From Parasphingorhabdus flavimaris (lineage in GTDB: Bacteria; Pseudomonadota; Alphaproteobacteria; Sphingomonadales; Sphingomonadaceae): a stretch of DNA of 64,000 nucleotides. The DNA lies in assembly GCF_013371215.1 (NCBI RefSeq), contig NZ_JABWMH010000001.1, positions 744,001 through 808,000 on the forward strand. Direction: 5' to 3'. Positions 1-17,868 of the stretch are shown in pieces; positions within the stretch are counted from its first letter, which is position 1; each line of letters starts with the position of its first letter. Made by a program: the position numbers and the translations under genes. Under the pieces are notes generated by a model, which saw only the letters and a list, made by a program, of their open reading frames with translations, was not told where the DNA came from and ran no database searches.

Positions 1-1839
1 GCCGAAAGCCCCGATCTGGTGCGGGCATTTTGGAAAGGCATATCGGCGATCAAGATATTGGACCCCGCCTGTGGTTCCGGCGCGTTCCTTTTTGCGGCAC
101 TCAATATCCAATATGACCTTTATGACGCTTGCCTTGAGCGTATGGAGCAATTCGTTGCCTCTGCCCCAGATAGCGGCGGCGGGCGTGGTCAGCTTTATTC
201 AGATTTCCGCGACGTGTTAAGACAAATTGCGCAGCATCCCAACCGAGACTATTTCATCTATAAATCGATTATCATCTCCAACCTCTATGGCGTCGATATT
301 ATGGACGAGGCCGTGGAGATTTGTAAGCTGCGTCTGTTCCTGAAACTGGCGTCACAGCTTGAAAGCCCGGACCAGATCGAACCGCTGCCCGATATTGATT
401 TCAACATTCGAGCTGGCAATACGCTCATTGGCTATACTTCCATTGCCGACGTGAAAAAGGCAACTGAAGCCAATGGCTTAGATTTCGATGACCGCGCCGG
501 CAAGATTGAAGCAGCAGCGCAAGACCTAGACCAAGCTTTCCGCTTATTCCGTGAACAGCAAACCAAATTGCATGGCGGAATAGAAGTCGATCATAAATCC
601 GAATTGCGTAGCCGATTGACCGCATTGGAAAGCCAGCTCGACCGTTTTCTCGCTAAAGACTATGGCGTCGATGTCCCTGAAATCGGAGATGATGATCTTG
701 CCGCCTCTGCAAATTTTCAGATTTGGAAAAATAGCCACAAGCCTTTCCATTGGCTGATTGAGTTTTACGGAATCATCAACGGCGGTGGGTTTGATGTGAT
801 CGTAGGAAACCCGCCATACATCGAGCTATCAAAGGTCAAAGCCGACTACATTCCAAGAGGCTACAAAACGGCCTCTGGCGGAAATCTTTACGGGTTATTT
901 GTCGAACATGAACACAAAATTGCATCTGCAAATACTTATACAGGTCTAATTGTGCCGATCTCAGTCATGTGCACGAAACGAACGACAGATGTGCAGCGTC
1001 AACTGTTGGCTAACTCCCAAGTATGGGCTTCAACTTTCGACGTCTTCCCCGCCCGCGCATTTGAAGGCGCAGCCCAGCGTGTTAGTATTGTGATCGCTGC
1101 CAACCCTTCTGGAATTCAACCTACCCTTCATACGACACGCTACCTCCGTTGGTTTCAGCAAGAACGTCCTTCTCTGATTGAAGGACTCGAATATGCGGAA
1201 ACCTCTGGTCTAGGAAAACTGGGTTGGTTGCCACGGCTCGGTTCATCGCGTGAAACTGCTATCTTGAAGCGTCTAACTGGCAAGCCATTGTCAGTTCAAA
1301 CAACGCGTGCAGGTGGCACCCCAATCTATGCTCATCGGATCGTCAATAATTTTGTAAAAGCTGTTAAATTTCCTCCCTACTTCAAGAAAGCCGACGGAAC
1401 CATCACAACTTCGGACGACTTCAAGATTCTTGGCCTAGATAAAACGATGATTGACCCTTTCGTTGCCGTCCTAAATTCGTCCTTATTTTATTGGTACTGG
1501 CGCGCACATGGCGACGGGTTTCATTGCGGGTATCGTGATATCGGGATGTTTCCATTCTCGCTGGATAAAATAGTTGAACCATTACGTTCAGAAATTGATC
1601 GACTGTCCGATGAGCTGAACGCCAGTCTTCGCGACAATTCGGAAATTCGCACAAGGAATCAAAAGGCAACTGGCCTGATACATTTACAAACTTTCTTCGT
1701 TGGAAAATCGAAAGATATTATTGATCAGATAGACATGGTACTTACAAAAATTGTTGGGATGTCGCACGAAGATACAGATTTCATCATCAACTACGATATC
1801 AAATACCGCATGGGCGCACATGAAGATGACCCCCATTGA
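1..1839 (+). CDS. N6-adenine DNA methyltransferase, Eco57I/type IIG-like (5' end cut by window)
   Basis: The frame is open at base 1, so the N-terminus is missing. Two class I methylase motifs are visible: the AdoMet-binding DPACGSGAF at residues 21-29 of the visible part and the catalytic NPPY at about 270-273. That order (motif I, then IV, with a long helical spacer) is the gamma-type arrangement of Eco57I, PglX and related adenine methylases. The part after NPPY resembles the target-recognition region of such enzymes. Its role would be modification of self DNA, either as part of a single-chain restriction enzyme or as one subunit of a multi-gene system. The next gene starts 20 bp before its stop, and two further genes follow with overlaps, so it belongs to a four-gene operon. 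Any nuclease or helicase domain lost upstream cannot be judged. Confidence 0.85.
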   Translation, partial: AESPDLVRAFWKGISAIKILDPACGSGAFLFAALNIQYDLYDACLERMEQFVASAPDSGGGRGQLYSDFRDVLRQIAQHPNRDYFIYKSIIISNLYGVDIMDEAVEICKLRLFLKLASQLESPDQIEPLPDIDFNIRAGNTLIGYTSIADVKKATEANGLDFDDRAGKIEAAAQDLDQAFRLFREQQTKLHGGIEVDHKSELRSRLTALESQLDRFLAKDYGVDVPEIGDDDLAASANFQIWKNSHKPFHWLIEFYGIINGGGFDVIVGNPPYIELSKVKADYIPRGYKTASGGNLYGLFVEHEHKIASANTYTGLIVPISVMCTKRTTDVQRQLLANSQVWASTFDVFPARAFEGAAQRVSIVIAANPSGIQPTLHTTRYLRWFQQERPSLIEGLEYAETSGLGKLGWLPRLGSSRETAILKRLTGKPLSVQTTRAGGTPIYAHRIVNNFVKAVKFPPYFKKADGTITTSDDFKILGLDKTMIDPFVAVLNSSLFYWYWRAHGDGFHCGYRDIGMFPFSLDKIVEPLRSEIDRLSDELNASLRDNSEIRTRNQKATGLIHLQTFFVGKSKDIIDQIDMVLTKIVGMSHEDTDFIINYDIKYRMGAHEDDPH

Positions 1840-2377
1840 TCCGCCGTCCCACCTTGGCAGCGCCGTATTGCTCGCGCGCCAACCCATCGCCTTCTTTTGC
1901 TCGCAGTCCTGTCCCGGCGATGTGATCCTAAAAGCGCAAGATTGGGCCAATGCGCGCGGCCCGAATAATCCGCCGGTGATTAGCGGTTTTCACACCCAAG
2001 TCGAACGCGACGTGCTCCGCATTCTTTTGCGCGGAAAAGCACCTGTCATTCATACCCTTGCACGTGCGGTCGAAGGAGCACGTCTGCCTACTGCGCTGCG
2101 AATAGCAGAGAAGGAGGGCCGTGCCCTAATCCTGTCCCCTTTTGCGGCCAGCGTAAAACGAACTACTTCCAGCACGTCAGAACAGCGCAATCGCTATATC
2201 CTCACCCAAGTCAGCAGCGTCCTTTTCGCCCACGCATCAAACGGAGGCAAAACCGAAATCCTTGCTGCTGAAGCTTTAACAATGGGCCTCCCTATTTTCA
2301 CCATGCAATCGCCAAGCAATGCCCATTTGATCATCATGGGCGCAAAGCCCATCAGCGTATTGGAAAACGAACGATGA
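1820..2377 (+). CDS. SLOG/DprA-like Rossmann-fold protein
   Basis: The start at 1820 (or the in-frame ATG at 1826) lies inside the end of the methylase gene; a longer open frame from 1751 would overlap more and is less likely. The product of about 185 residues has the pattern of the DprA/LOG-like nucleotide-binding fold: a GFHTQVERD segment near residue 55, an ILSPF strand, a short E-Q-R-N-R helix, and FAHASNGGKT followed by an acidic helix. Members of this superfamily bind DNA (DprA) or nucleotides (SLOG sensors). The protein is shorter than true DprA and lacks its flanking domains, so a natural-transformation role is unlikely. Its position between a methylase and a helicase-nuclease suggests a sensor or DNA-handling part of a defence system; that is inference. 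Confidence 0.65.
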   Translation: MKMTPIDPPSHLGSAVLLARQPIAFFCSQSCPGDVILKAQDWANARGPNNPPVISGFHTQVERDVLRILLRGKAPVIHTLARAVEGARLPTALRIAEKEGRALILSPFAASVKRTTSSTSEQRNRYILTQVSSVLFAHASNGGKTEILAAEALTMGLPIFTMQSPSNAHLIIMGAKPISVLENER

Positions 2378-3129
2378 CCATCAATCCAAATTTTTCGGCG
2401 ATTCCTGCCGAGGTGCTCTCGGAAATTCGGGAAGGTGCCAAAACCGAATGGCCCGATGATTCTGAGATGCAAGACTATTACATCGATGAAGAAGCCGGCG
2501 GTTATTTGGCTGTTCAATCCATTGAGTATGGTGCCGCGTTACCAGTCCAAACTAATATTTTGGCCGAGGCGATGGAATTTCATGACACATGGGAAAGCCG
2601 GGCAGGCTTCGTTCAAGAAGAAGTTGAAGCTTATTCTGAACTCCAAACGCTGCCCCCGGACGACATACCTTCTGATGCGTTCGACGGCTTCGTGAAGTCT
2701 GCCGCTGCCGAAAACGATTGGTACAGCCTACAATTAGACGAGGTGAAGCGGGCAATTGACGGTTATCGCTACATCCAGCGGACGCGAGAAAAAGTCGAGC
2801 CAATCCGCGACCTTCTCGTTCGGATGGAGGATATCATCGGACAGGAATGCTATAACGCCAACATCCAGAATTACAGCTCATGGGGTGAATGGGACGGCGA
2901 AGGTCGCTCATTTCGATACCCCGTCACATACATCCGCAAAGGTGAGGAAGAGAAAAGGCGAGCGCGAACCGCCGATTTGGAACATGAAGAACTTGTGACG
3001 GGCCACTACAAATTCGGCGCGAATGAACTGAGCATATACCGCGCGCTTTTAAAGGTCGTGGACATGCTGGAAGCCGAATATGGGTTTCAACGGCCTAAGT
3101 TAGATCGAGAGGCAGGAACAAATGATTGA
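2374..3129 (+). CDS. Uncharacterised 251-aa protein of the methylase-helicase operon
   Basis: I do not recognise this family. The start overlaps the previous stop as ATGA, and the next gene begins 8 bp before its own stop, so translation is coupled on both sides. The product is acidic in its N-terminal half, predicted soluble and mostly helical, with no signal peptide or membrane segment. A central charged helix (residues about 125-160) is followed by a region rich in Tyr, Trp and Gly around residues 160-185. No catalytic motif is apparent. It could be a structural or adaptor subunit specific to the system. Confidence 0.8.
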   Translation: MTINPNFSAIPAEVLSEIREGAKTEWPDDSEMQDYYIDEEAGGYLAVQSIEYGAALPVQTNILAEAMEFHDTWESRAGFVQEEVEAYSELQTLPPDDIPSDAFDGFVKSAAAENDWYSLQLDEVKRAIDGYRYIQRTREKVEPIRDLLVRMEDIIGQECYNANIQNYSSWGEWDGEGRSFRYPVTYIRKGEEEKRRARTADLEHEELVTGHYKFGANELSIYRALLKVVDMLEAEYGFQRPKLDREAGTND

Positions 3130-6100
3130 AGGTGCACGTAAACTTCCGATGAAACACCTTTCAGTCCGCGTGCCTTGGCATGATTCCGGATGGAACGGCA
3201 AAGTCTGCTCTAACCCGCTTGGAAATACTTATTGCATCGCTCTACCCCGCATCGGCGATACCCGCGATGACGAATGGGAAAACGAGAACGCCGGTGAAAT
3301 GTTTGATCCAGACGGCGTGCGTCTTCCTGCCTGCGCGGCGGAGCGCGGAGCATTCATGTCCGAAGCCGCCTATGAGCGGCGCTTTCCCCATCCCTATGCG
3401 CGGCAGAACAATGCGCTCTACACCCATTTTCGCACGACAACTTTTCGCCATGCCCCGCGCTCCGCATCCGCTGTCCCCTTCGCCTGGATGATGAAAGAAG
3501 CGAAGACTGGCATTCCAGCCATCGCGGACCGCTTGGGCCTCGGCTTTCGCCCGGAACGCGAACCAGACCTCGGCTTTCACAGTATCTGGGTGCAGGAGCG
3601 ATCCAACCAACTCGTCATGCTTGATACGTTCTTCGAAGCGATCAATCCGCAAGAATCGTTGGTGTTCTTCTATGCCAAGCGGACCCCTTTGACCGATGAC
3701 CCGCGCAGGGTGATCGTTGGCATAGGCCGGGTAACCGGGGTAAGCGGCCCAACGGAATATGCCTATGAAGACCGGCACGACGATGCTTTGCGGTCCATGG
3801 TTTGGGAACGCAATGTCAGTCATTCGATCCGGCCTGAAATCGGCGATGGCTTCCTGTTGCCCTATCAAGAGCTGTTAGAACTCGCTGCCGGTGATGCGGA
3901 CTTTGATCCGTCGCTCTATGTGCTCCATGCCTCGGAGGAGCATTGGGATGCTTTCTCAATGGGTTCGGAGCATGTCAGCCACGACCAGGCTGTTTCGGTT
4001 CTTTTGTCCGCTGCAAATGTGGTCGCGCGCTATGAAGCCCTGTTGCCCGGAGCATGGGACAAAGCGCGAAGCTGGATCGACGCGGAACTCAATCGTCTAT
4101 GGCGACTACGCGGGGCATTCCCCGGCCTCGGCTCGGCCCTGAGCGCGCTGGGTCTGGAAAATGGTACGCTCATCGCCCACGAAGTGGGTAGGCTGCTACA
4201 TGCCGATGGCAAGGAAGAAGTGCGTGATCCTTGGCCACTCGTTGATTCTGTATTGCGTGACCCGCTGAAACTCCCTGCCGATCTCAGGAAATCCGTTGGT
4301 CCAGTCATCGTAAAACTGTGGGACAAACTTCAGCCCGAACGGCGCGCCCTCCTGAAATTGCTCGCCCGTTTTGAAATCTCTAAAGAACAGGCGCAACGAT
4401 GGTGGATACATGAGGTTCGTAAGAAAGCAGGACTAAACATCGAAGATGGCCAGATACTGGCCAATCCTTATCTTTGCTATGAAATGGATCGCGGTCGGCT
4501 CGATGCCATTCCCTTGAGCACTATTGATAGGGGGGTATTCCCAGACCCCCAGATCGAAGTAGCTATTCCTATTCCGCATCCTTCAGCCTGCCCGGAACCG
4601 ATCGACCCCAGACGTGGCAGAGCGTTTATTCTCAAAACTTTGGAAGAGGCCACGACCGAAGGGCACACGCTGTTGCCGCAAGAATGGATTGTGAACCGGA
4701 TTCGCGACGCGGAATTAGCACCTGCATGTCCCATTGGCAGCGATTGGTTCGAAGCATTTGGTGACAAGCTTGCTCCCGTCCTTTCGGAAGCTGACGATGC
4801 TTCTGGAAGCCCAGCTTGGCAGCTTGATCGCTATGCAGACGCGCGGACGTTTATCAGCGCTCGTATCCGCAAGCGCCTCAAAGGGATGCGCCATGACATT
4901 AGCGAAAACTGGCGTGCACTGATCGATAAAGTCATCCCTGATCCTGCAAAAGCAGATGATGTTGAGGAACAGGCTGCCCGGAATGAGAAAGCTGTCGCCT
5001 TAGAAGAGGTCTTCCGGTCGCGCGTTGTCGCGTTGATCGGTCCAGCGGGTACAGGAAAAACCACTTTGTTGCAGGCGTTGTTATCCATTCCAACAGTCAA
5101 GCAAGGTGGTGTCTTATTACTCGCGCCAACGGGCAAGGCTCGCGTTCAAATGCAGAAAAAGGCTGGCGACGTGAAGGCCTATACGTTGGCACAGTTTTTG
5201 TCAGAATTTGGCCGCTATGACGGCAAATCTTTCCGTTATTTTGTAACGGGCCAACAACCACGCGAAAATGGTTATTCCACTGTCATTATTGACGAAGCCT
5301 CTATGCTCACAGAGGACCAACTGGCTGCGACACTCGATGCCCTTGACCCTGCCGCCGTGCAGCGGCTGGTGCTGGTCGGAGACCCCCGCCAGCTACCTCC
5401 AATCGGAGCGGGGCGTCCCTTTGTCGATATCATCACGCTCCTAAGCGAAAGTGACGCAAAGCCAGCCCCCGGTCTTGCTGAGCTTAGCATTGTCCGCCGC
5501 CAAACGGGTGGGGACGGTGTACTGCTCTCACGCTGGTTTTCCGGAGAAGCGCCTGACCCCGGAGCGGACGAAATTTGGGATAGGCTGTCTTCTGGACAAG
5601 CCGAAGGCGTTCGTGCGGTTCAATGGGATGGAGATGCGGACCTTCACAAAAAACTGCTGGTAGAATTAACTGCACATGTCCGACGCGATGCGGACCCATC
5701 TTGGTCCGATGAGACCGCGTTTGAAGTCAGTCTCGGCGGATCAGAGTTTAGAGGTCGAGTCTATTTTTCGCAGTCTCGCGCAGTTGACGGACAGCGAAAT
5801 GGCGGCGGAGCGAATACTGAAAGTTGGCAAATTCTTGCACCTCTTCGTGGAGGGGAGACTGGCGTCGATGGGATGAATCGCTGGATAAAAAGGCTATTTC
5901 GGAATTCGGTGCGTTCTTGGGCGGAGCCAGAAAACCCAAGATATCGCAAGGTTGCAAAGGCAATGGGAAGCCAAGGCATCCTCTATGGTGACAAGGTCAT
6001 CAATCTTTCTAACGGTAGGCGTTTCGACGTTTACCCAGAAGATCCAAACGCCTATCTTGCGAACGGCGAGATTGGTTTAGCCGTTGGTCAATACAAGGGG

Positions 6101-6868
6101 ACCAAATGGAAGCCTAAGAAACTTCCATGGAAGCTTGAGGTCGAGTTTTCAACGCAGCTCGGCCAGAAATTTGGCTTTTCCGGATCAGACTTTTCTGAAG
6201 ACGGCAACGACCGTCTTGAGCTTGCCTATGCTCTAACGATTCACAAGTCGCAAGGGAGCGAGTTTGGAACAACATTCGTGGTCATTCCAAACCCTTGTCG
6301 GCTTTTGTCACGCGAGCTTCTCTACACGGCGTTAACGCGTCAACAACAGGAAGTAGTTGTTTTTCATCAAGGCGAAATTCGCGAATTGATGAAAATGTCT
6401 GATGCCGCAAACTCAGATACGGCGCACCGCCTCACTAACCTGTTCACAAAGCCGTCGCTGGTTTCTCATGGAACCGCGTTTTTGGAACAAGGTTTGGTTC
6501 ACCGAACCATTCGTGGTGAGCTTGTTCGATCAAAGTCAGAAGTCATCATCGCAAATTTGTTAGACAGTATGGGTGTTCCATATAGCTACGAGCAGCCCTT
6601 TGTCGGGCGCGATGGTACATTAAGATATCCTGATTTCACGGTGGAAGACGCCGAAAGCGGTCGCCGCCTGTTGATCGAGCATTTAGGTATGCTTGACCGG
6701 CCTGACTACAAAAGCCGTTGGGAAAAGAAGCTTCTTTGGTACCGAAAAATGGGTGTGTTGCCAGTTGAGGAAAGCCAATCAGCGATTGGACTGCTAACTA
6801 CAACCGAGGTCACTGGCTTCGATGCTGCAGAAGTCAAAATTAGAATTGAAGCAGCTCTTGAAATCTGA
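3122..6868 (+). CDS. RecD-like SF1 helicase with C-terminal PD-(D/E)XK-like nuclease domain
   Basis: This 1248-aa protein has a long N-terminal region (about 1-620) without a fold I recognise. An SF1B helicase core follows: Walker A GPAGTGKTT at about 638-646, Walker B VIIDEAS near 720, motif III GDPRQLPPIG near 752, a UvrD/RecD-type IHKSQGSEF near 1037 and YTALTR near 1067. The C-terminal segment (about 1136-1200) has SEVIIANLLDSMG, then Y-PDFTV and LIEHLG, then the charged helix and WY that typify a PD-(D/E)XK-type domain found on many helicases and defence proteins. The EHL form replaces the usual ExK lysine, so nuclease activity is not certain. It is the last gene of the operon. It would be expected to move along and cut DNA; the pairing with a methylase suggests restriction. 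Confidence 0.85.
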   Translation: MIEGARKLPMKHLSVRVPWHDSGWNGKVCSNPLGNTYCIALPRIGDTRDDEWENENAGEMFDPDGVRLPACAAERGAFMSEAAYERRFPHPYARQNNALYTHFRTTTFRHAPRSASAVPFAWMMKEAKTGIPAIADRLGLGFRPEREPDLGFHSIWVQERSNQLVMLDTFFEAINPQESLVFFYAKRTPLTDDPRRVIVGIGRVTGVSGPTEYAYEDRHDDALRSMVWERNVSHSIRPEIGDGFLLPYQELLELAAGDADFDPSLYVLHASEEHWDAFSMGSEHVSHDQAVSVLLSAANVVARYEALLPGAWDKARSWIDAELNRLWRLRGAFPGLGSALSALGLENGTLIAHEVGRLLHADGKEEVRDPWPLVDSVLRDPLKLPADLRKSVGPVIVKLWDKLQPERRALLKLLARFEISKEQAQRWWIHEVRKKAGLNIEDGQILANPYLCYEMDRGRLDAIPLSTIDRGVFPDPQIEVAIPIPHPSACPEPIDPRRGRAFILKTLEEATTEGHTLLPQEWIVNRIRDAELAPACPIGSDWFEAFGDKLAPVLSEADDASGSPAWQLDRYADARTFISARIRKRLKGMRHDISENWRALIDKVIPDPAKADDVEEQAARNEKAVALEEVFRSRVVALIGPAGTGKTTLLQALLSIPTVKQGGVLLLAPTGKARVQMQKKAGDVKAYTLAQFLSEFGRYDGKSFRYFVTGQQPRENGYSTVIIDEASMLTEDQLAATLDALDPAAVQRLVLVGDPRQLPPIGAGRPFVDIITLLSESDAKPAPGLAELSIVRRQTGGDGVLLSRWFSGEAPDPGADEIWDRLSSGQAEGVRAVQWDGDADLHKKLLVELTAHVRRDADPSWSDETAFEVSLGGSEFRGRVYFSQSRAVDGQRNGGGANTESWQILAPLRGGETGVDGMNRWIKRLFRNSVRSWAEPENPRYRKVAKAMGSQGILYGDKVINLSNGRRFDVYPEDPNAYLANGEIGLAVGQYKGTKWKPKKLPWKLEVEFSTQLGQKFGFSGSDFSEDGNDRLELAYALTIHKSQGSEFGTTFVVIPNPCRLLSRELLYTALTRQQQEVVVFHQGEIRELMKMSDAANSDTAHRLTNLFTKPSLVSHGTAFLEQGLVHRTIRGELVRSKSEVIIANLLDSMGVPYSYEQPFVGRDGTLRYPDFTVEDAESGRRLLIEHLGMLDRPDYKSRWEKKLLWYRKMGVLPVEESQSAIGLLTTTEVTGFDAAEVKIRIEAALEI

Positions 6869-8016: not shown

Positions 8017-8208
8017 ATGAAACGCAAAGACCTTGCCACCATCACACTTTCTGACCCTGACCAGATGATGTTGGGCGGCGTTGCGCCGGTTAGCATAGGT
8101 GAGCGGCTTGGTTGGCTTGCCGAGCAGCCGATGCAGCCCCACCGCGAGCAGAAGCCGCTCGACATCGGATTTTGGAATCCGATGCGTGACCAGATTGAAA
8201 TGTTCTAA
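8017..8208 (+). CDS. Small uncharacterised protein, 63 aa
   Basis: The ATG at 8017 follows GCGGAG (8002-8007) and lies 14 bp after the DUF3768 stop, so the three small genes form one operon. The product is hydrophilic, with a Met-Met-Leu-Gly-Gly turn near residue 14 and no recognisable domain. A perfect hairpin 32 bp downstream of the stop may end the transcript. I cannot assign a function. Confidence 0.6.
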   Translation: MKRKDLATITLSDPDQMMLGGVAPVSIGERLGWLAEQPMQPHREQKPLDIGFWNPMRDQIEMF

Positions 8209-8240
8209 CCGTGATTGCATCGCCAGCCATGTATTTTCGC

Positions 8241-8263
8241 GGCCCGTCCATGCGGGACGGGCC
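8241..8263 (+). terminator. Perfect 9-bp hairpin after the small-gene operon
   Basis: GGCCCGTCC (8241-8249) pairs with GGACGGGCC (8255-8263) around a 5-nt loop. There is no clear T-run after it, so it is a possible rather than a classical terminator. A second perfect stem, ATCGGCGCG/CGCGCCGAT, lies at 8293-8325. Confidence 0.45.
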
Positions 8264-8334
8264 AAGGCCGACTGCCTTTGCATTCGGCCTCAATCGGCGC
8301 GTCAGCTTATGGCTGCCGCGCCGATGAGCGAAAA

Positions 8335-8372
8335 GATATGGATATTTATGGGTCGCATTACGGGTAGTGACG
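8335..8372. repeat. Left flank repeat of the NERD-helicase gene
   Basis: TATGGATATTTATGGGT (about 8338-8354) recurs, with one change, at 10489-10505 beyond the other end of the helicase gene in the same orientation. The adjoining GGTAGTGACG (8363-8372) recurs inverted, as CGTCACTACC, at 10458-10467. The two flanks therefore share about 30 bases in pieces. This could be the scar of an insertion or two related regulatory sites. Confidence 0.5.
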
Positions 8373-8461: not shown

Positions 8462-10321
8462 TCAATGCGACTGATCGACTTTGTTAGTAATATCAGTGAA
8501 ATTCGGCCAAGTTTTCGCATATTCGAGAAATTCTGGTGACGAGCTGATGATCGTTAAGCGGCTACCTAGGCTGCTATTTTTGAGTCGCGTTAGGCCGGTA
8601 TAGATAAGCGCGATACTTCCAGCATCAGTCGTGGTTCCGACATGGATTACTAGTGATGGCGACTCCCATCCTTTGAAGCTGTGAAGCGTCGTGGCCTTTA
8701 TGCGGGCGTCTCCCATATAAAAACCCACTTTTTGTCGCCGCCTCTCCTGTACGTCCTCGGCAAAAGTCGAAACGCTTTTGACGCCTCGATCATTTAGCAT
8801 TTCAACGACACTGCTACCGCTAGCAACGTCGGCAGCGAGGTAGGTGATATCAGCATTGGCGAGATTTCCTGTTCCGGTGAAATGCATCATTCGTAGCAGT
8901 TCTTCTGTGCAGGCTTTGGCCGACTGCGGAGCCGCACATTGGACCCAACGCAATCGGCATGGAGCGAGATCGAATTCGCCCTGATTTTGCAGTGGTAGAT
9001 CGATCTCCGTTCCTGGCAGAAAACGATCAGCGAAATTACGAATCAGAGGAACCGCTTCGGGAGGCAACCGGTAACTGACATCAAGCCTTGACCAGTTCCC
9101 TCGAAATCCCGCGCCAGTCATTGCATCGTCGGTCCAATCGTCCGCCGTACCGTAAATGTTTTGTGTGGCATCGGCAGCCATAAGCATTTCACCACCGGGC
9201 TTGAGGAAGCGGCGTAATGTATTCCACCACAGCGGCTGATAATCCTGCCCCTCATCGACAAGAATCGCATCGTAGGTAGGTGCTTGCATCTCATCGGCGA
9301 TAGTAGAAACCAAGTTAGGTAACGACGTTTTCATAACGATGCTGGCGTCGCTACCTTTCCATAGGTCATCGTAGCGATCAGACCAACCTACATGCTCGCA
9401 AATGTCTCTGCACCAGCTATGAAAATTGGCAAAAACGATGTTTCGATAACTTTGCTTTTTCCGTAAATCGCGAACGATCAAATCACGCAGATAGTGCCAT
9501 AAGGTGATATTGAAGGTCGCCACGAGAACCGACTTACCTTCGTCTGCAAGCCTTGCCGCTCGTGCAGCAAGAACAAGTGATTTCCCTGATCCTGCCGGAC
9601 CTTTAATCCTCCGGAAGCCAGTATCTGTTCGGAAGTTAGCCAGTTGCCGCTGATGCGCGTTCATAACCAGCGGGCGGCGTTGAGTGACGGAGAAGTCAGG
9701 TTCCACTAGCCAACCACGCAAATCTTCGGCGAGTTCCGGCCGCATCAAAACCGAATGGCTGCGAGTTGAATCTGGAAACACATGGCTGATGTCCCTATTC
9801 CTGATCTCGCTCGCACCACTGATGGTCATGTACCGAGCAAGCTGCTCATTATCCTCGTGCTTGAGGAAAGGGTCAAAAAGCGAGCGCAAGCGCTTCCTGT
9901 CTGCAAAAGGAAAAATTACCCCAGCGGTAATTGCCCCGAAGCCCTTCTTTGCTGTTAGCCTTGGGCAATAGAGATTGAATATCGCTTCCCGGTAATATTC
10001 CGCTTTAGTGACGGGATTATCCATCTGCCGAGAAAACTCCTTGCCGTCTTTACGCGCCCAGAGTTTCGGCGGAGGACCTTGGCGAACGAAATATTCCATC
10101 GCATCAAGATCCCAGTCTTTCACCTCGAATACAGCAATACCTATCTGTGGATGCAGCAGCACAAAATCAGGTCGCAGACCATTTAGATGAGGCTGAATGT
10201 ATATTTCCCATTCAGGATCAAGCGAACTCGAAAACAAGTCGAACACCATTTTTTCACCCGCTGTCAACGGTTGGCGTAACTTTGGTAGCTCCGACAATGG
10301 TGGAGAAATTATTCTTTCCAA
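8462..10321 (-). CDS. NERD nuclease-domain SF1 helicase
   Basis: The 619-aa product starts with a NERD-type nuclease-related domain (about residues 20-130: GEKMVFDLF, RPDFVLLHP and AVFEVKDW, which carry the acidic and ExK residues of the PD-(D/E)XK fold). A UvrD-like helicase follows: Walker A GPAGSGKS near 240, Walker B LVDEGQDYQ near 355, ADATQNIYG, TLHSFKGWE and IYTGLTR near the end. The start is TTG at 10321, supported by AAGGACG a few bases upstream; no ATG lies close by. NERD-helicases process DNA and several act as single-gene phage defence proteins (the Nhi type combines nuclease and helicase similarly). The gene stands alone between the small-gene operon and fic, and is flanked by short related repeats. 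Confidence 0.85.
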   Translation of the reverse strand: MERIISPPLSELPKLRQPLTAGEKMVFDLFSSSLDPEWEIYIQPHLNGLRPDFVLLHPQIGIAVFEVKDWDLDAMEYFVRQGPPPKLWARKDGKEFSRQMDNPVTKAEYYREAIFNLYCPRLTAKKGFGAITAGVIFPFADRKRLRSLFDPFLKHEDNEQLARYMTISGASEIRNRDISHVFPDSTRSHSVLMRPELAEDLRGWLVEPDFSVTQRRPLVMNAHQRQLANFRTDTGFRRIKGPAGSGKSLVLAARAARLADEGKSVLVATFNITLWHYLRDLIVRDLRKKQSYRNIVFANFHSWCRDICEHVGWSDRYDDLWKGSDASIVMKTSLPNLVSTIADEMQAPTYDAILVDEGQDYQPLWWNTLRRFLKPGGEMLMAADATQNIYGTADDWTDDAMTGAGFRGNWSRLDVSYRLPPEAVPLIRNFADRFLPGTEIDLPLQNQGEFDLAPCRLRWVQCAAPQSAKACTEELLRMMHFTGTGNLANADITYLAADVASGSSVVEMLNDRGVKSVSTFAEDVQERRRQKVGFYMGDARIKATTLHSFKGWESPSLVIHVGTTTDAGSIALIYTGLTRLKNSSLGSRLTIISSSPEFLEYAKTWPNFTDITNKVDQSH

Positions 10322-10457: not shown

Positions 10458-10513
10458 CGTCACTACCTATTACATGCGCGATTGCATTTATGGATATTTA
10501 TGAGTATAAATAT
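10458..10513. promoter_or_regulatory. Candidate operator at the fic start (repeat flank and 8-bp palindrome)
   Basis: ATATTTAT (10494-10501) and ATAAATAT (10506-10513) form a perfect inverted repeat that covers the probable ATG at 10500. CGTCACTACC at 10458-10467 and the preceding region repeat sequence found near 8338-8372. Since the Fic protein carries a winged helix, autoregulation at this site is plausible but unproven. Confidence 0.4.
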
Positions 10514-11570
10514 GGATATGCCTATCAACATAGCCTCGTTGGCGATCACGCCGCAAATGCTCTCGCTGATTGCCGAGATCGATGAGTTCAAAGGCGCATG
10601 GCGCGCTTTGGGAACGCTTGCGCCTGATCGCCTGTCGGCGCTGCGGCGCGTGGCGACGATTGAAAGCATCGGCTCTTCGACGCGGATTGAGGGGAGTAAG
10701 CTGTCAGACAGCGATGTTGAGCGGCTGCTTTCCAATATTGAAATTCAAAACTTCGCCACCCGCGATGAGCAAGAAGTGGCGGGATATGCCGAAGTGATGG
10801 AAACCATCTTCGCATCGTTCGATGAAATTGCGCCGACCGAGAACCACATCAAACAATTGCACCGCGACTTGCTGGCGCACAGCAGCAAGGATGCGCGTCA
10901 TCGCGGCAGTTACAAAACCAACACCAATCATGTCAGCGCCTTCGACGCCGAGGGCAAGGAAATCGGCGTTGTGTTCGAGACGGCTACGCCGTTCGATACA
11001 CCGCGATTGATGGTGGAACTGGTCGAGTGGGTGAATAAGACGCTGGACCAAAAGCAGCTTCATCCGCTGCTTGTCACAGCGATTTTCATCGTCGTCTTCC
11101 TCGAAATCCATCCGTTTCAGGATGGCAATGGCCGCTTGTCGCGGGTGCTGACCACTTTGCTCTTGCTACGCAGCGGCTATGTCTATGTGCCGTATTCCTC
11201 ACTCGAAAGCGTGATCGAGGCGAGCAAGGAAGGCTATTATCTGGGGCTTCGCCGGACGCAGGGCACAATCCGCAGCGACGCGCCAGTCTGGGAGCCGTGG
11301 ATCATCTATTTCCTCCAGTCACTTCGGCAGCAGAAATCGCGACTTGAGGCTAAGATCAAACGCGAACGATTGATGACCCAGCGGTTGCCCGAACTCTCTG
11401 TGCAGATTCTCGAACTAGCGAAAGCGCACGGGCGGATCACCAACAGCCAGGTTGTGGAAGTGACGGGCGCAAACCGCAACACGGTCAAAAAGCATTTGCA
11501 GATGCTGGTATCGGATAACCACCTTGTCCAGCACGGTAGCGGCAAAGCGACATATTACAGCCGCGTCTGA
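10500..11570 (+). CDS. Fic family protein with C-terminal winged helix
   Basis: Fic enzymes transfer AMP or related groups from nucleotides to target proteins. The motif HPFQDGNGRLSR (about residues 204-215) is the complete catalytic HPFxDGNGRxxR. An inhibitory motif of the (S/T)xxxE(G/N) type is present as STRIEG at about 59-64, making this a class II Fic protein with an internal brake. The C-terminal 60 residues form a winged-helix-like segment (TNSQVVEVTGANRNTVKKHL). ATG at 10500 is chosen; 10512 and 10518 are alternatives and none has a strong ribosome-binding site. The gene is monocistronic. Fic-winged helix proteins of this layout are common in bacterial genomes and mobile elements; the target is unknown. 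Confidence 0.88.
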   Translation: MSINMDMPINIASLAITPQMLSLIAEIDEFKGAWRALGTLAPDRLSALRRVATIESIGSSTRIEGSKLSDSDVERLLSNIEIQNFATRDEQEVAGYAEVMETIFASFDEIAPTENHIKQLHRDLLAHSSKDARHRGSYKTNTNHVSAFDAEGKEIGVVFETATPFDTPRLMVELVEWVNKTLDQKQLHPLLVTAIFIVVFLEIHPFQDGNGRLSRVLTTLLLLRSGYVYVPYSSLESVIEASKEGYYLGLRRTQGTIRSDAPVWEPWIIYFLQSLRQQKSRLEAKIKRERLMTQRLPELSVQILELAKAHGRITNSQVVEVTGANRNTVKKHLQMLVSDNHLVQHGSGKATYYSRV

Positions 11571-12249: not shown

Positions 12250-12705
12250 TTACCATCGCTCCATCAGGCCAAAAAACCAGACGGTAAGCGCAATCGCAGC
12301 GAGCCAGATGAATACGACGGCAGCCAACCCCGCTTTTGACGTCGGTTTGCGGTGCTCAAGAGCCTTCGCACGAAGGTCGGCCATTATCGGTTCGGGGATG
12401 AGCTTGACCGCTGCCCATATGCCGAACGGCACAATCAATAGGTCATCGAGATAGCCAAGTATCGGTATAAAATCAGGAATAAGATCGATGGGGGAAAGCG
12501 CATAGGCGGCGACCGCAGCAGAGAGCGCCTTGGCATACCAAGGAACGCGAGGGTCGCGCGCGGCCAACCACAGCGCAATCACGTCACGCTTTAAGTTGCG
12601 TGCCCAAACTTTCAGGCGTTCCATCGTACCAAGCTCACTCATCTGTCTTGAGTGGCGCATACGGGTAATGTCCGCAATGTCCTCGACTAAGTTCATTACT
12701 TTCAC
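12250..12705 (-). CDS. DUF1232 (YkvA-like) membrane protein
   Basis: The 151-aa product carries the DUF1232 signature (YALSPIDLIPDFIPILGYLDDLLIV) in its middle, with a hydrophobic helix there and another near the C-terminus (VVFIWLAAIALTVWFF). The GTG start at 12705 overlaps the traG stop by four bases; ATG at 12696 is an alternative. It is the last gene of the traC-traD-traG operon. The family is small, membrane-associated and of unknown function, and it is often near mobile genes in sphingomonads. Confidence 0.8.
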   Translation of the reverse strand: MKVMNLVEDIADITRMRHSRQMSELGTMERLKVWARNLKRDVIALWLAARDPRVPWYAKALSAAVAAYALSPIDLIPDFIPILGYLDDLLIVPFGIWAAVKLIPEPIMADLRAKALEHRKPTSKAGLAAVVFIWLAAIALTVWFFGLMERW

Positions 12706-14219
12706 GGCGCATCGAACATCCCCGCAAATTCCTTATCCGCGTAATATCGCAACTTCCTGACGATCAGCGGACTTTCACCAACGCGCATTAGCAAAAGCGT
12801 ATCGGACGCAAGTTTCATTATCTCATTGGGGTCCATGAGATTGCGGGTGGCGAGGTGCTGGGTTTTACTCAACGACCGTTCAGGGTCTTTAAGCATCACA
12901 TCCTTTTGGCTCTGCCCGCCGGTTTCATAGGTGATGGTTTCGCGTCCCATCGTCTTCGACAGCATATCGGCGGTATCAAAATCATTGACCCCGAACGCTT
13001 GCAGCACACCGGCATTGGACAGGAACGTCCCTGCGCGGGTTCCATAGAGGCTGCGCAATTGGTGGATGTCCTGCAATATGGGCCAGAGTTGCAGACCGTA
13101 TCCAGCCATCAGACCCATAGCGCGCTCGATAGGTTGCAGCCGCCCGAGCGCGGCGAATTCATCAAGCAGGAACAAGACAGGGCGCTCCGGCTTGGCTGAC
13201 GAGCGCGCCATTTCATTGATGGATTGCGCAATCAGCAAGCGCAGCCAGCGCGAATATGTATCGAGCCGGTCGGGCGGCAGGATCAGAAACACCGTCGCCA
13301 CCTCGTCCTTGAGGTCGGCAAAGGCAAAGTCAGACCCGCCCACCACGGCTGCGATGCGCGGGCTATCAAGAAAATGGGTGTGCCGCTGCGCGCCCGACAA
13401 CACGCCTGCCGCTTCGCGGTGCGATTTGCTGAGGTATCGGTTAGCAGCTCGCGCGATCAATCCGCTCGCGCGGTCGCTCGCCTGCATGATCGTTAGCAAC
13501 GCCGTGAAGTCATCGGGAGCCAGCGTCAGATAATCCCGAACGCTGGTCAAATTTCGGTGCGCGGCATCATCATGGCAGACGACATAAAGGATGATGCCCG
13601 ATATGAGCGCTTTGGCTTCCTCGTTCCAATGCGCTTCGGTTTCGGCCTCATCGAACACCAGCGCATCGGCAAGCGTCATCGCATCTTCGGCCAGATCAAG
13701 GCTTTTGGCGTCAAGCTGGTCGAGCGGATTGTAACGTGCGCTTGTCTGCCCCGAGATACCGAACGGATCGAGGCAATGCACCGGCCCGAACGCTTCACGC
13801 TGGCGCAGCGTCACAAGGGCATTCTCCCCCTTGGGATCAATGCAGACCACCGACCGATTGGCGGTGAGTAGATTGGGAATGATCGTGCCCACACCTTTGC
13901 CCGAGCGCGTCGGTGCGATGGTGATGAGATGGGCGGGGCCATCATAACGGAGCAACCGACCCGATGTGTCGCGGCCAATCAGCAGATCGCCTTTGTTTTT
14001 CGCCAGCGCGTTCACGTCACTGCGCGATCCGAACTGGGCGGAGCCAAGTGTGGTATCGGAGCGACCGAGCCGGACCTTGAGGTAAATGCCCCCGATCCAA
14101 ACAGCAAGGCCACCGATCAGGATCAGCCAGAATGCGGTATGCGTTTTCGGCAACCACCAAGCGATAAGCAGCACTCCAGCGAACAGCAACAACGCGCATC
14201 CGTGAAGGCGGCTACTCAC
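12702..14219 (-). CDS. traG: Type IV coupling protein TraG/VirD4
   Basis: The coupling protein is the inner-membrane ATPase that hands the relaxase-DNA complex to the secretion channel. The 505-aa product has two N-terminal membrane helices (about 8-24 and 28-46), Walker A APTRSGKG near 103-110 and Walker B VLFLLDEFAALG about residue 345. It is shorter than the roughly 650-aa Ti plasmid TraG, missing part of the C-terminal region. It follows traC and traD on the same strand, the classic traCDG order, and reads away from traA across the oriT region. No mating-pair formation genes are present, so it would have to use a channel encoded elsewhere. Confidence 0.92.
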   Translation of the reverse strand: MSSRLHGCALLLFAGVLLIAWWLPKTHTAFWLILIGGLAVWIGGIYLKVRLGRSDTTLGSAQFGSRSDVNALAKNKGDLLIGRDTSGRLLRYDGPAHLITIAPTRSGKGVGTIIPNLLTANRSVVCIDPKGENALVTLRQREAFGPVHCLDPFGISGQTSARYNPLDQLDAKSLDLAEDAMTLADALVFDEAETEAHWNEEAKALISGIILYVVCHDDAAHRNLTSVRDYLTLAPDDFTALLTIMQASDRASGLIARAANRYLSKSHREAAGVLSGAQRHTHFLDSPRIAAVVGGSDFAFADLKDEVATVFLILPPDRLDTYSRWLRLLIAQSINEMARSSAKPERPVLFLLDEFAALGRLQPIERAMGLMAGYGLQLWPILQDIHQLRSLYGTRAGTFLSNAGVLQAFGVNDFDTADMLSKTMGRETITYETGGQSQKDVMLKDPERSLSKTQHLATRNLMDPNEIMKLASDTLLLMRVGESPLIVRKLRYYADKEFAGMFDAP

Positions 14220-14222
14220 CGA

Positions 14223-14618
14223 TCAATCCTCATCGCTTTGCGCATCAGCCAGCGGCTTATCTTGCGCAGCTTCGCTTTCGGAATCAAACGCCCGCTTGCC
14301 GCGACGCTTCCACAACGCCATCGCGTTAATGCCATCATCATCTTGTGCACGACCAGCAAGTTCAAGCATCGCGCCGTAAAGGGTAGCACGGTCATCATCG
14401 GTGAGTTCGACCAAGCCTGATTTCTGGACGAGGCCGCCCAGTTCGATCAGATGCCGTGTTCGTTCCCGTCGCTGCACCACCCACTCCCTTGTATCATATC
14501 GCCGCTGTCCAGCTTCAACCCGCCGCTTCGCCGCGAGGTTTCTAGTCAGCGCTCGATTGGTTATTACCAGCTTTGCGACGACCTTTGCGCCCGCGCTTGC
14601 CGAGAAAGGTCGCACCAT
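14223..14618 (-). CDS. traD: Conjugal transfer protein TraD
   Basis: The central segment RTRHLIELGGLVQKSGLVELTDDDRATLYGAML matches the TraD family of Ti-type mobilisation modules, small helical proteins between traC and traG. The long open frame from ATG 14618 overlaps traC by 77 bases; internal GTG codons near 14490 would give a product closer to the usual 70-100 aa and avoid the overlap, so the true start is unsettled. The C-terminus is acidic and low in complexity. The stop lies 3 bp before the traG start. TraD is thought to help traG and relaxosome function. Confidence 0.75.
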   Translation of the reverse strand: MVRPFSASAGAKVVAKLVITNRALTRNLAAKRRVEAGQRRYDTREWVVQRRERTRHLIELGGLVQKSGLVELTDDDRATLYGAMLELAGRAQDDDGINAMALWKRRGKRAFDSESEAAQDKPLADAQSDED

Positions 14619-14823
14619 CGGCGCGCCAGCTCTCCTTTACGGAATCGAGCTTGGCTTCCTGCACGCCTTGGCGAAGCATTCCAGCGATGACTTCAAGGTC
14701 AAGCGCGTCGGCTCCGGTCGCAACCACCAGCGCGCCAAGCTGTTCGACTTTTCGCGCCTTGAGCTTCTTCGCCTTGTCCGCGAGCGCTTTCAGTTCAGCA
14801 TCATAGTCCCGGACTTTACGCAT
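14542..14823 (-). CDS. traC: Conjugal transfer protein TraC
   Basis: The 93-aa basic protein begins with a charged coiled-coil (DYDAELKALADKAKKLKARK) and continues with LGALVVATGADALDLEVIAGML, the usual TraC pattern, and ends in a Lys/Arg-rich stretch (GKRGRKGRRKAG). TraC of Ti plasmids is an accessory relaxosome protein. It is the first gene of the minus-strand tra operon and starts about 115 bp from the predicted oriT, as expected. Confidence 0.8.
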   Translation of the reverse strand: MRKVRDYDAELKALADKAKKLKARKVEQLGALVVATGADALDLEVIAGMLRQGVQEAKLDSVKESWRADGATFLGKRGRKGRRKAGNNQSSAD

Positions 14824-14937
14824 CGCGTGTCTCCGTATATTGCCATTTAGACTCGCAACATATGCGAAAACCGTCTTTCAGACAATCGCTTCATAAAATC
14901 CAAGAACCAAGTCACATCAGAATTTCGTAAGTAATTT

Positions 14938-14980
14938 TGAGTGCGCGCTTATACGTTGTTGCCAACGTCGCTTAAAAGTG
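14938..14980 (-). other. Predicted origin of transfer (oriT), Ti/RSF1010 type
   Basis: Read on the minus strand, the inverted repeat ACGTTG-GCAA-CAACGT (14953-14968) is followed directly by ATAAGCGCGCAC. In Ti plasmids and RSF1010-like elements an inverted repeat is followed by TAAGTGCGCCCT, where the relaxase nicks. The site lies between the divergent traC and traA genes, the position of oriT in Ti plasmids. The exact nick (probably within TAAGCGCG-CAC) is inferred. Confidence 0.7.
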
Positions 14981-15008
14981 AGAGGATATAAATAGATCGG
15001 AGGTGCTG

Positions 15009-15338
15009 ATGCAGGTGCTCGCACTTGACCATGTTCAACTCGCAATGCCAGCGGGCGAAGAAGCAAGCGCTCGCGCCTTCTACGCAGGCATTCTTGGCAT
15101 CCCAGAGACGCCCAAACCACCTAACCTAGCTAAGCGTGGAGGTTGCTGGTTCGAGCGCGGTCTCTTGAAGGCTCATCCGGCCTTGCTCGTTCAAGGTTTG
15201 CGCGAGTTGATTGTGAAACTGGAGCACGCGGGTTTCTCTCCACAATCAGACGAACCGCTTGAAGGCTATGATCGCGTCTATGTCGCCGACCCGTTCGGAA
15301 ATCGGATCGAATTGATGGAGCCGCTTGCGGTCGGTTGA
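15009..15338 (+). CDS. VOC (glyoxalase/bleomycin resistance) family protein, compact form
   Basis: The ATG at 15009 follows CGGAGG (14998-15003). The 109-aa product has the paired VOC pattern: LDHVQLAMPAGEEASARAFYAGILGI at the N-terminus and VYVADPFGNRIELME at the C-terminus. Between GGCWFERG and KAHPALLVQ it is about ten residues shorter than related VOC proteins, which lose there a strand that usually carries a metal-ligand His. It may therefore be inactive or use another binding mode. It sits between oriT and traA, an unusual place, and its end overlaps the possible upstream start of traA. Confidence 0.8.
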   Translation: MQVLALDHVQLAMPAGEEASARAFYAGILGIPETPKPPNLAKRGGCWFERGLLKAHPALLVQGLRELIVKLEHAGFSPQSDEPLEGYDRVYVADPFGNRIELMEPLAVG

Positions 15339-15342
15339 TCTT

Positions 15343-17868
15343 ATGGCAATCTACCATTTCTCTGCAAAAGTCGTGAGCCGCGCCAACGGATCAAGCGCGG
15401 TTGCCTCGGCTGCCTACCGTGCAGCTGAACGCCTTACCGATGACCGGCTTGGGCGCGATCATGACTTCACCAACAAGGCCGGTGTCGTCCACTCCGAGAT
15501 CATGTTGCCCGAGGGTGCGCCGGAGCGACTCGGCGACCGCGAGACGCTTTGGAATGCCGTCGAGGCAGGCGAGGTCCGCAAGGACGCGCAGCTTGCGCGC
15601 GATGTCGAGTTTGCGATTCCACGGGAGATGAACGAGGCGGAGGGCGCACAGTTGGCGCGTGATTTTGTCGCACGGGAATTTGTAGCGCGCGGCATGATTG
15701 CCGACCTCAATGTCCATTGGGATAAGGAGGCAGATGGTAGTCCCAAGCCCCATGCCCATGTCATGCTCTCGATGCGCGAAGTTGGCCCCGAAGGCTTTGG
15801 CCAGAAGGAGCGAGACTGGAACAGCAAAGAGCTTTTGGGCAATTGGCGCGAGAGCTGGGCCGACCATGTGAACACCCGCATGGCCGAGCTGGGCCTTGAT
15901 GCGCGCGTCGATCACCGGACATTGGAAGCACAGGGCATTCCGCTTGAACCGCAGCACAAGATTGGTGCGGTAGGATCACGGCGCGCCATCCACGGCGAGG
16001 ACGCCGAACGCGCCGACGATCATATGCGGATCGCGCGCGAGAATGGCGACAAGATTATCGCCGATCCTGCCATCGCTTTGAATGCGATTACCCATTCCCA
16101 AGCCACATTCACAAAGCGCGACCTTGCCCAGTTTGCGTTCCGGCACAGCGACGGCAAGGATCAGTTCGATGCGGTCATGGCATCGGTGCGCGGCTCGCCT
16201 GAACTTGTCGCATTGGGAAAAGACGGCAAGGATCAGGAACGGTTTACCAGCGCCGATATGATTGCGGTGGAAGAGCGGCTTGGGCTTTCTGCGTCGATGC
16301 TGGTCACCAGCGAGCGACACGGTGTTGCGGATCGTAACCGCCATGCTGCGCTTGATGGCGCAGCCGGACGCGGGATGATTTTATCGGGCGAGCAGCGCGA
16401 TGCGTTCGATCACGTCACTAGCGAGCGCGGTCTTTCCTCGGTCGTCGGATATGCCGGGAGCGGCAAGTCGGCAATGCTGGGTGTTGCGCGGGATGCTTGG
16501 GAGCGTGAAGGCTATAATGTGCGCGGTGCTTCGCTCTCTGGCATCGCTGCGGAAAATCTCGAAGCCGGTTCGGGCATTACGTCACGGACGATTGCTAGTC
16601 TGGAATATCAGTGGAAGCATGGCCGCGAGCAATTGAGCGAACGTGATGTGCTGGTCATCGACGAAGCGGGCCTGACCGGCACGCGTCAGATGGAGCGCGT
16701 CTTATCATCGGCGCGTGATGCAGGCGCGAAGGTTGTGCTGGTTGGCGATCCCGAGCAGTTGCAGGCAATAGAGGCTGGAGCGGCATTCCGCTCGCTCGCC
16801 GAAGCGCACGGCGCGGTTGAGATTACCGAGATTCGCCGCCAGCGCGATGACTGGCAGCGCGGCGCAACCCGTGCGCTTGCCACCGGAAGGACTGGCGAGG
16901 CGATCCATGCTTATGGTGAAAACAGCATGGTTCACAGCGCCGAGACGCGCGAGGATGCGCGCGCTGAGCTTGTTGAGGGCTGGAATGATGCTCGCACCAG
17001 CTACCCTGACAAAAGCCGGATCATATTGACCCATACCAATGCCGAAGTGCGCGACCTCAATATAGCTGCGCGTGACAAGCTGCGCGATCATGGCGAGCTT
17101 GGCGCTGATATTGGCGTCGAAACCGAACGCGGGACGCGCAATTTTGCCAGCGGTGACCGGATGATGTTCTTGCGCAACGAACGCGGCATGGGAGTCAAGA
17201 ACGGGACGCTTGGCACGGTTGAGCAGGTGTCGCCCGGACATATGGCCGTTCGCACAGACGATGGGCGCAGTGTATCGTTCGACCTCAAGGACTATGACCA
17301 TATCGATCATGGCTATGCGGCCACCTTCCACAAATCGCAGGGCGTGACGGTCGATCAGGCGCATATATTGGCAACGCCGGGTATGGACCGGCATTCGGCC
17401 TATGTTGGCCTCACGCGCCACCGTGACGAGGTGCAGCTTCATTATGGCCGCGATGATTTTGCCGACCAGAGCAAACTTGTCCGCACCCTGTCGCGCGAAC
17501 GAGCAAAGGACATGGCGAGCGATTATCCGCTGCCCGATGCCGCAGCGCGCGGCTTTGCCGAGCGGCGCGAGTTCCGGTTTGGCGAAATGACCCGCGATAT
17601 GGTCGTCGAGGCGCGTAACTTGATCGCTGACCCTGACCGGATTGAAGCTTTGCGGGGCCGTCTCGACAAGGCGCTAGGGCGTGAGCCGTCAATAGCGCCC
17701 GAAGCTAAGCGCGGCGCGGACAAAGAACCGGAGAAAGGTCGCGACACCAATGACGCTGCGAGCCGCCTGCACGCCCGCATGGCCGAACTGGGCAAACAGG
17801 TGCGAAAAGACGATGAGCGGGATCGTGACCGCACGAAAGACCGAGACCGTGGAGGGCCAGGACGATGA
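15343..17868 (+). CDS. traA: Conjugal transfer relaxase-helicase TraA (MobA/MobL family)
   Basis: The relaxase nicks oriT and pilots the strand. The N-terminal MobA/MobL domain starts AIYHFSAKVVSR and contains KPHAHVMLSMR near 135-145 with the metal-binding histidines. A RecD/TraI-type helicase follows: Walker A GYAGSGKS near 369-376, Walker B LVIDEAG near 436, GDPEQLQAIEAG and TFHKSQG near 660. The C-terminus is a charged, low-complexity tail and the protein (841 aa) is shorter than Ti TraA (about 1100 aa). ATG 15343 is chosen because it begins the conserved N-terminus; a TTG at 15325 is less likely. The stop overlaps the next ATG by four bases. Confidence 0.93.
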   Translation: MAIYHFSAKVVSRANGSSAVASAAYRAAERLTDDRLGRDHDFTNKAGVVHSEIMLPEGAPERLGDRETLWNAVEAGEVRKDAQLARDVEFAIPREMNEAEGAQLARDFVAREFVARGMIADLNVHWDKEADGSPKPHAHVMLSMREVGPEGFGQKERDWNSKELLGNWRESWADHVNTRMAELGLDARVDHRTLEAQGIPLEPQHKIGAVGSRRAIHGEDAERADDHMRIARENGDKIIADPAIALNAITHSQATFTKRDLAQFAFRHSDGKDQFDAVMASVRGSPELVALGKDGKDQERFTSADMIAVEERLGLSASMLVTSERHGVADRNRHAALDGAAGRGMILSGEQRDAFDHVTSERGLSSVVGYAGSGKSAMLGVARDAWEREGYNVRGASLSGIAAENLEAGSGITSRTIASLEYQWKHGREQLSERDVLVIDEAGLTGTRQMERVLSSARDAGAKVVLVGDPEQLQAIEAGAAFRSLAEAHGAVEITEIRRQRDDWQRGATRALATGRTGEAIHAYGENSMVHSAETREDARAELVEGWNDARTSYPDKSRIILTHTNAEVRDLNIAARDKLRDHGELGADIGVETERGTRNFASGDRMMFLRNERGMGVKNGTLGTVEQVSPGHMAVRTDDGRSVSFDLKDYDHIDHGYAATFHKSQGVTVDQAHILATPGMDRHSAYVGLTRHRDEVQLHYGRDDFADQSKLVRTLSRERAKDMASDYPLPDAAARGFAERREFRFGEMTRDMVVEARNLIADPDRIEALRGRLDKALGREPSIAPEAKRGADKEPEKGRDTNDAASRLHARMAELGKQVRKDDERDRDRTKDRDRGGPGR

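Follow-up and report, generated by a model that had tools for sequence, protein, structure and literature searches.

The first 6868 bases of the 64-kb window analysed here (bases 744001-808000 of contig NZ_JABWMH010000001.1, in the 3.35-Mb genome of Parasphingorhabdus flavimaris) hold the tail of a five-gene operon that is probably anti-phage. We read the operon as a mobile, layered restriction locus, in which a compact translocating core that has no DUF499 ATPase would be joined to an exchangeable second-line effector, and put the probability of this reading at roughly 0.62; the restriction core is better supported than the cooperation of the layers. The reading is drawn from sequence, namely from gene order, motifs, conservation of the core pair, replacement of a recognition region, variation of a slot behind the core and insertion of an island. 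Coordinates are those of the window, with negative numbers for positions to the left of its base 1, or those of a locus record (L004 is the window's own locus, L008 that of Sphingobium subterraneum). The genes of the operon, and two parts of them, are:

-4834 to -1445 (L004:3166-6555), wholly left of the window: HKD(PLD)-nuclease/SNF2-translocase gene, 1129 amino acids
1-1839, forward strand: in-window part of the adenine-N6 DNA methyltransferase (methylase) gene, 1093 amino acids (whole gene L004:6558-9839, beginning 1442 bases left of base 1)
955-1557, forward strand: variable region of the methylase, about residues 800-1000, probably target-recognition
1820-2377, forward strand: DprA-like (SLOG) gene, 185 amino acids (open reading frame listed from a TTG at 1751; ATG at 1820)
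2374-3129, forward strand: orphan gene, 251 amino acids
3122-6868, forward strand: RecD-like helicase-nuclease gene (PDC-S68), 1248 amino acids
6500-6754, forward strand: PD-(D/E)xK-like nuclease part of the helicase (E1140, D1171, E1187-H1188, K1203)

An earlier note, made from the window alone, had described the four genes from the methylase onwards, with overlaps of 20, 4 and 8 bp, and the re-derived open frames bear out both the genes and the overlaps. It had also recognised the logic of restriction in them, rightly in our judgement. The sequence to the left of base 1 completes the gene that the note had called an adenine methylase cut by the window edge; the complete protein of 1093 amino acids matches the Eco57I methylase family PF07669 with 88 bits. 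The same flanking sequence reveals an additional core gene outside the window, the HKD-nuclease/SNF2 gene, which ends 2 bp before the methylase starts. The operon thus has five genes with the HKD-SNF2 gene first, and the four genes of the window are its tail.

The SNF2 protein carries an N-terminal HKD/PLD nuclease domain (PF13091) followed by SNF2 helicase domains (PF00176, PF00271). PADLOC model C3a139 (HKD+Snf2) has the same domain order, but the match to it is partial (170 bits, residues 115-866). Residues H139, K141, D149 and N162, together with the helicase motifs, are invariant among the residues present in 13 aligned homologues. The methylase matches the PADLOC type IIG model PDLC03628 over its whole length (998 bits, residues 2-1089), and its motifs DPxCGSG and GNPP are invariant among homologues.

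Judged from sequence, the HKD-SNF2 protein and the methylase are a conserved unit. Among 21 loci with near full-length SNF2 relatives of at least 35% identity (relatives below 35% or partial, L011, L013 and L015 among them, are outside this count), a relative of the methylase is the next large gene at 20 by tblastn, and at the 21st (L084) a methylase is annotated there. Eight of the 21 entered through the window's own genome or through helicase or methylase searches, which may favour the pair; at the 13 loci found with the SNF2 query, the methylase is recognised by homology in 12 and by annotation in one. These 13 comprise five genomes and eight plasmids, the latter newly read, by our own choice, out of 25 plasmid hits, of which four had been read earlier and 13 are unread. 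Named records with the pair come from four phyla: Pseudomonadota, Thermodesulfobacteriota (Pelobacter), Cyanobacteriota and Actinomycetota. At E <= 1e-60, and with the window's own genome included, the SNF2 gene was found in 6 of 397 genomes of the family, and the methylase in 2 of 385 genomes of the class and 4 of 398 of the phylum; a search for the methylase in viral contigs found none.

Residues 1-600 of the methylase are 68-94% identical to all five relatives compared, while residues 801-1000 are 23-43% identical to four of them and 78-85% to that of L008. Replacement of this segment while the rest is kept looks like the exchange of a target-recognition region, as in restriction-modification, so that the recognition region has probably been swapped between close relatives in the manner of those systems. 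A full-length homologue of the methylase (44% identity), with an SNF2 gene upstream, lies on the Synechocystis plasmid pSYSX. According to PMC7296061 and PMC6604393, pSYSX bears M.Ssp6803IV, which marks GAm6AGGC, and M.Ssp6803V, which is slr6095 and clusters with an S-subunit gene. The homologue has no S-subunit gene alongside, and it is therefore probably M.Ssp6803IV, preceded by an SNF2 partner like that of the present operon; two small genes, one VapC-like, separate the two genes there, unlike in the window's operon. Methylation of a motif on one strand would be more in keeping with a translocating enzyme than with a plain cutter.

Behind the methylase is a slot that varies in content. Defence-like genes occupy it in 8 of the 21 pair loci:

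L004 and L008: RecD-like helicase-nuclease and orphan
L034 and L047: GmrSD (Hma-embedded candidate models, HEC-05) and AlbA
L038: GmrSD
L046: GHKL ATPase
L048: UvrD and GmrSD-HNH
L085 (Anabaena): ATPase/DUF4276 pair with HEC-01 matches

The slot genes of L034, L035, L038, L046, L047, L048, L084 and L085 were scanned; for other loci we used annotation or gene calls. In L034 a remnant of the orphan gene (8202-8360, reverse strand) lies directly behind the methylase whose slot now has GmrSD and AlbA, which from its sequence we take as a sign of cargo replacement. The HEC series takes its name from candidates embedded in Hma, and the PDC series, to which the helicase of this operon belongs, stems from a 'guilt-by-embedding' survey (both PMC12988326); the embedding of effectors in operons of this kind is therefore already described. 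In L046 the core is preceded by a DUF4172-Fic gene.

The last gene of the operon had been called a RecD-like helicase with a nuclease-like C-terminus, and profile matches and a C-terminal motif uphold this. Its match to RecD2 (TIGR01448, 184.8 bits) is below the cut-off of 500, and we class it as a RecD-like helicase of superfamily 1B. PADLOC already catalogues it as PDC-S68 (1555 bits, residues 9-1245, a whole-length match). The helicase motifs and the C-terminal VRSKxE, PDFT, EHxG and K are invariant in 15 aligned helicases, and we take the C-terminal part, from its motif rather than from a profile match, to belong to the PD-(D/E)xK superfamily. Of 17 loci collected at that stage, the alignment omits L017 and L018, whose genes are interrupted or split. 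These two are broken helicase genes on Rhizobium and Sphingomonas plasmids.

The helicase is rare (3 of 385 genomes of the class, own included, E <= 1e-60), and we compared 19 loci that carry it (L004, L008-L023, L078 and L079). At nine of them it stands in a same-strand run with SNF2/DrmD or DNA methylase genes. Two of the nine, L004 and L008, are the HKD-SNF2/methylase core operon described here. In L011 and L015, identical in gene layout, DrmD precedes the helicase, and an HKD-SNF2 gene and a type III methylase follow it. The neighbours are an HKD-SNF2 gene and a type IIG methylase in L013, a type IIG methylase in L021, and DrmD and a type III methylase in L022. L014 and L018 both have a large protein and DrmD, but the order of the two is reversed between these loci, and in L018 DrmD is three genes from the split helicase. 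This makes about five or six distinct arrangements. Elsewhere, the helicase of L012 follows a TmtA-like gene, the same-strand genes beside those of L078 and L009, compared by BLAST with our reference set only, had no match in it, and type I restriction genes face the helicase on the opposite strand in L010 and L023. No paper naming PDC-S68, and none joining DISARM, RecD, SNF2 and methyltransferase, was found in the literature covered, which leaves out preprints and most subscription papers.

The second gene of the window had been called SLOG/DprA-like, and we retain it as DprA-like, although its score to DprA family PF02481 (19.7 bits) is below the Pfam cut-off of 29.6. It matches the PsyrA model over part of that model (E 3.8e-10), and a Foldseek search returned ShosA (8zva, E 1.7e-6) and then DprA, from a query model with a predicted local distance difference test (pLDDT) score of only 55.5. 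A profile of the protein found no match among PDB sequences, and a search of plasmids found none. Binding of single-stranded DNA is stated for DprA, and proposed for a defence pair of DprA with a phosphoribosyltransferase, in PMC9122126.

The orphan protein has an N-terminal helical part and a conserved C-terminal domain with the invariant columns ECYNxxIQN...GxGRxFRYP...YxFGxNEL in six homologues. It has no family match in PADLOC, Pfam, NCBIfam or PHROGs; its profile gave one hit among PDB sequences (E 0.24), and its AlphaFold2 model (mean pLDDT 77.9, with the C-terminal domain poorly modelled) gave none in PDB and BFVD at E <= 0.001 by Foldseek. The gene occurs in 3 of 296 genomes of the order, own included and one of them a remnant, and in 2 of the 21 pair loci (tblastn, E 1e-10), plus the remnant in L034; two further viral scans returned the same two loci or none. 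Three relatives have restriction genes in their neighbourhood:

L050, 7704-8546: orphan relative, with an HsdR-like gene
L026, 15001-15711: orphan relative, with an MmeI-type methylase/helicase/GIY-YIG operon
L027, 14992-15723: orphan relative, with a type I restriction-modification operon

The L051 relative is encoded on a viral contig that also has an integrase.

In the layered restriction locus that we propose, the methylase would mark the host's DNA at a short sequence that its exchangeable recognition region determines. The methylase/SNF2-HKD pair would engage on unmarked DNA, where the SNF2 motor would translocate and the HKD nuclease would cut. In the accessory layer, the DprA-like protein may bind single-stranded or recombining DNA from the attack, the co-expressed RecD-like helicase-nuclease would unwind and degrade the broken invader, and the orphan might be an adaptor; in relatives, other effectors would take the accessory slot.

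Several observations weigh against this reading. Two of the 20 methylases that are recognised by homology behind SNF2 genes are truncated (L032 and L086), and in three cyanobacterial plasmid loci the pair is interrupted by two small genes:

L029 11356-11989, L030 11356-11989 and L087 10484-11114: the intervening genes, one for a VapC-like toxin and one other small gene

The assignment of the pSYSX homologue to M.Ssp6803IV, though probable, is by elimination. In the slot of L035 there is a PLD-like gene below the Pfam cut-off with no clear defence match, and the slot of L084 gave no PADLOC match; neither was counted. A DprA-like gene stands behind the methylase in five of the 21 pair loci (tblastn, E 1e-10): those of the window's own genome, of three others of the same family and of Sphingobium subterraneum. 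The AlbA of L047, which has a SLOG gene, is 69% identical to that of L034, in which no SLOG gene was found, so that not all effectors need the sensor, contrary to a strict SLOG-effector link. Orphan relatives in L033, L028 and L051 adjoin no recognised restriction gene. The counts of helicase neighbours are raw and have no background rate, and defence genes cluster anyway. Lastly, 9 of the 19 helicase loci have no same-strand SNF2, DrmD or methylase neighbour by BLAST against our reference set (for L016, L019, L020 and L023 additionally by record annotation), so cooperation need not occur.

That last count also favours the alternative that survives best, in which the PDC-S68 RecD-like nuclease is an independent anti-phage system that shares the promoter of the core and is uncoupled from it. 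PMC12988326 presents the PDC-S models as single-gene candidates that embedding brought to light, which points the same way. The whole-length match places the helicase in a series that by its name holds single-gene candidates, yet here it stands inside a restriction operon. Against independence, nine of the 19 loci have it in same-strand SNF2/DrmD/methylase runs of at least five arrangements, and its 8-bp overlap with the orphan is kept in L008. We regard an independent PDC-S68 as a serious competitor that falls somewhat short of an even chance. A more specific form of the layered locus, in which a minimal two-gene core gained a dedicated DprA-like sensor, with a slot behind it for the exchange of unrelated effectors (RecD-nuclease, GmrSD/AlbA, GHKL ATPase, UvrD), and in which this sensor would couple failure of the core, signalled by single-stranded DNA, to whichever effector had been exchanged in, is unlikely in our estimate.

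As the earlier note had supposed, the set fits no named system: no named system's models in PADLOC, Pfam or NCBIfam cover it. The closest known systems are the Type-2 BREX-related (BR) systems, which form one class of the DUF499 (Hma) systems; the operon is similar to them in kind without being a member. Like it, they pair an N6-methyltransferase with an SNF2 helicase that bears an HKD nuclease at its N-terminus, and they have additional effectors embedded in the locus (PMC12839542). The operon differs in having no DUF499 ATPase (PF04465, no matches in the window's own genome or among the operon proteins; as a control, the model matched in 1 of 14 named genomes).

Class 1 DISARM also combines an SNF2 helicase with an adenine methylase, but the best PADLOC models for DrmD and DrmMI score only 110 and 78 bits here, and the SNF2 protein falls far below the DrmD equivalog NF038317 (128.7 bits, cut-off 610), as the methylase does below the BREX PglX equivalog NF033452 (78.7 bits, cut-off 500). 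Within the five operon proteins, the rest of the genome not being searched, there is no stand-alone DUF3780 of the BR systems by Pfam, no match to PglZ or BrxC of BREX, and no DrmA, DrmB or DrmC of DISARM recognised beyond weak cross-matches of the helicase. Membership of BREX, DISARM or BR/Hma was rejected on these scores and on the failure to find DUF499. The DprA-like gene resembles PsyrA and, from a poor structural model, possibly ShosA, but the operon proteins have no match to a PsyrT-like or phosphoribosyltransferase toxin such as PsyrTA and ShosTA have; PsyrT is RecQ-like.

BREX, and perhaps DISARM, block phage replication without cutting. The core might do the same, with the methylase as a PglX-like marker; the methylase does resemble PglX and the SNF2 protein DrmD, both far below cut-off, but the HKD motif is invariant in 13 homologues and the operon proteins lack PglZ, BrxC, DrmA and DrmB, those weak cross-matches aside. 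We consider a non-cutting core improbable. A shade less probable again is that the methylase cuts alone, as a genuine type IIG enzyme, with the SNF2 protein as no more than a helper. Like type IIG restriction-modification enzymes, the methylase has a probable target-recognition region, and it matches their model from end to end; however, its residues 1-140, where the nuclease would be expected, hold no invariant D, E or K among 13 aligned homologues, and the SNF2 partner carries a nuclease motif of its own.

The earlier note had proposed the four genes as one undescribed system, and here the comparison went against it, with the very outcome, genes that occur apart, that the note itself had named as refuting. 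Among the loci read, the complete set recurs only in Sphingobium subterraneum, where identity to the window's operon is 82% for SNF2, 78% for the methylase, 61% for SLOG, 59% for the orphan and 87% for the helicase. By tblastn (E 1e-10), a relative of this methylase is absent from 17 of the 19 helicase loci, several of which have other methylases, and the helicase is absent from 19 of the 21 SNF2-methylase loci; among nine genomes picked because they carry the pair or the orphan, only the window's own gave a helicase match (E <= 1e-40). Because the genes are not kept together, one obligate four-gene system was rejected: that the four genes work only as a whole is the least probable explanation of all, for although the genes overlap and L008 has the whole set with the same 4-bp (SLOG/orphan) and 8-bp (orphan/helicase) overlaps, the set is present in two loci only and its members occur mostly apart elsewhere.

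A testable two-layer model supersedes an unknown four-gene system. Its core would be a compact restriction pair, present in four phyla, without the ATPase that defines its nearest named relatives, and the catalogued PDC-S68 turns out to lie in the operons of a range of methylase/SNF2 systems. Should the slot prove interchangeable, one core could serve for a side-by-side comparison of second-line effectors.

An integrated island, some 28.5 kb long and spanning genome positions 737129-765653 (each end placed to within about 100 bp), carries the operon. The island is absent in all four same-genus loci read; the flanks are 79 bp apart in one of these (G254) and 171-818 bp apart in the other three. 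On the island, besides the operon, are:

1-21653: in-window part of the island, with junctions about 6871 bases left of base 1 and at about 21653
-6639 to -5338 (L004:1361-2662): tyrosine integrase (PF00589, 40.3 bits), preceding the SNF2 gene
8462-10321, reverse strand: NERD and UvrD helicase gene (PADLOC C3a187, 494 bits)
10482-11570, forward strand: Fic protein with winged helix (SoFic-like, 161 bits)
12702-17868: VirD4-like type IV secretion system coupling protein and MobA/MobL relaxase-helicase
18475-20421, forward strand: GHKL (HATPase_c_3) protein, 648 amino acids

The coupling protein and the relaxase give the island the look of a mobilizable element or of a conjugative one that has decayed. 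Its GHKL protein shares 25% identity with the L046 slot gene across 192 columns of the ATPase region. No exact repeat of at least 12 bp joins the ends of the island. By eye, both junctions share TTCAGGATGA, which may be the attachment core and lies inside a palindromic repeat with many copies across the genus.

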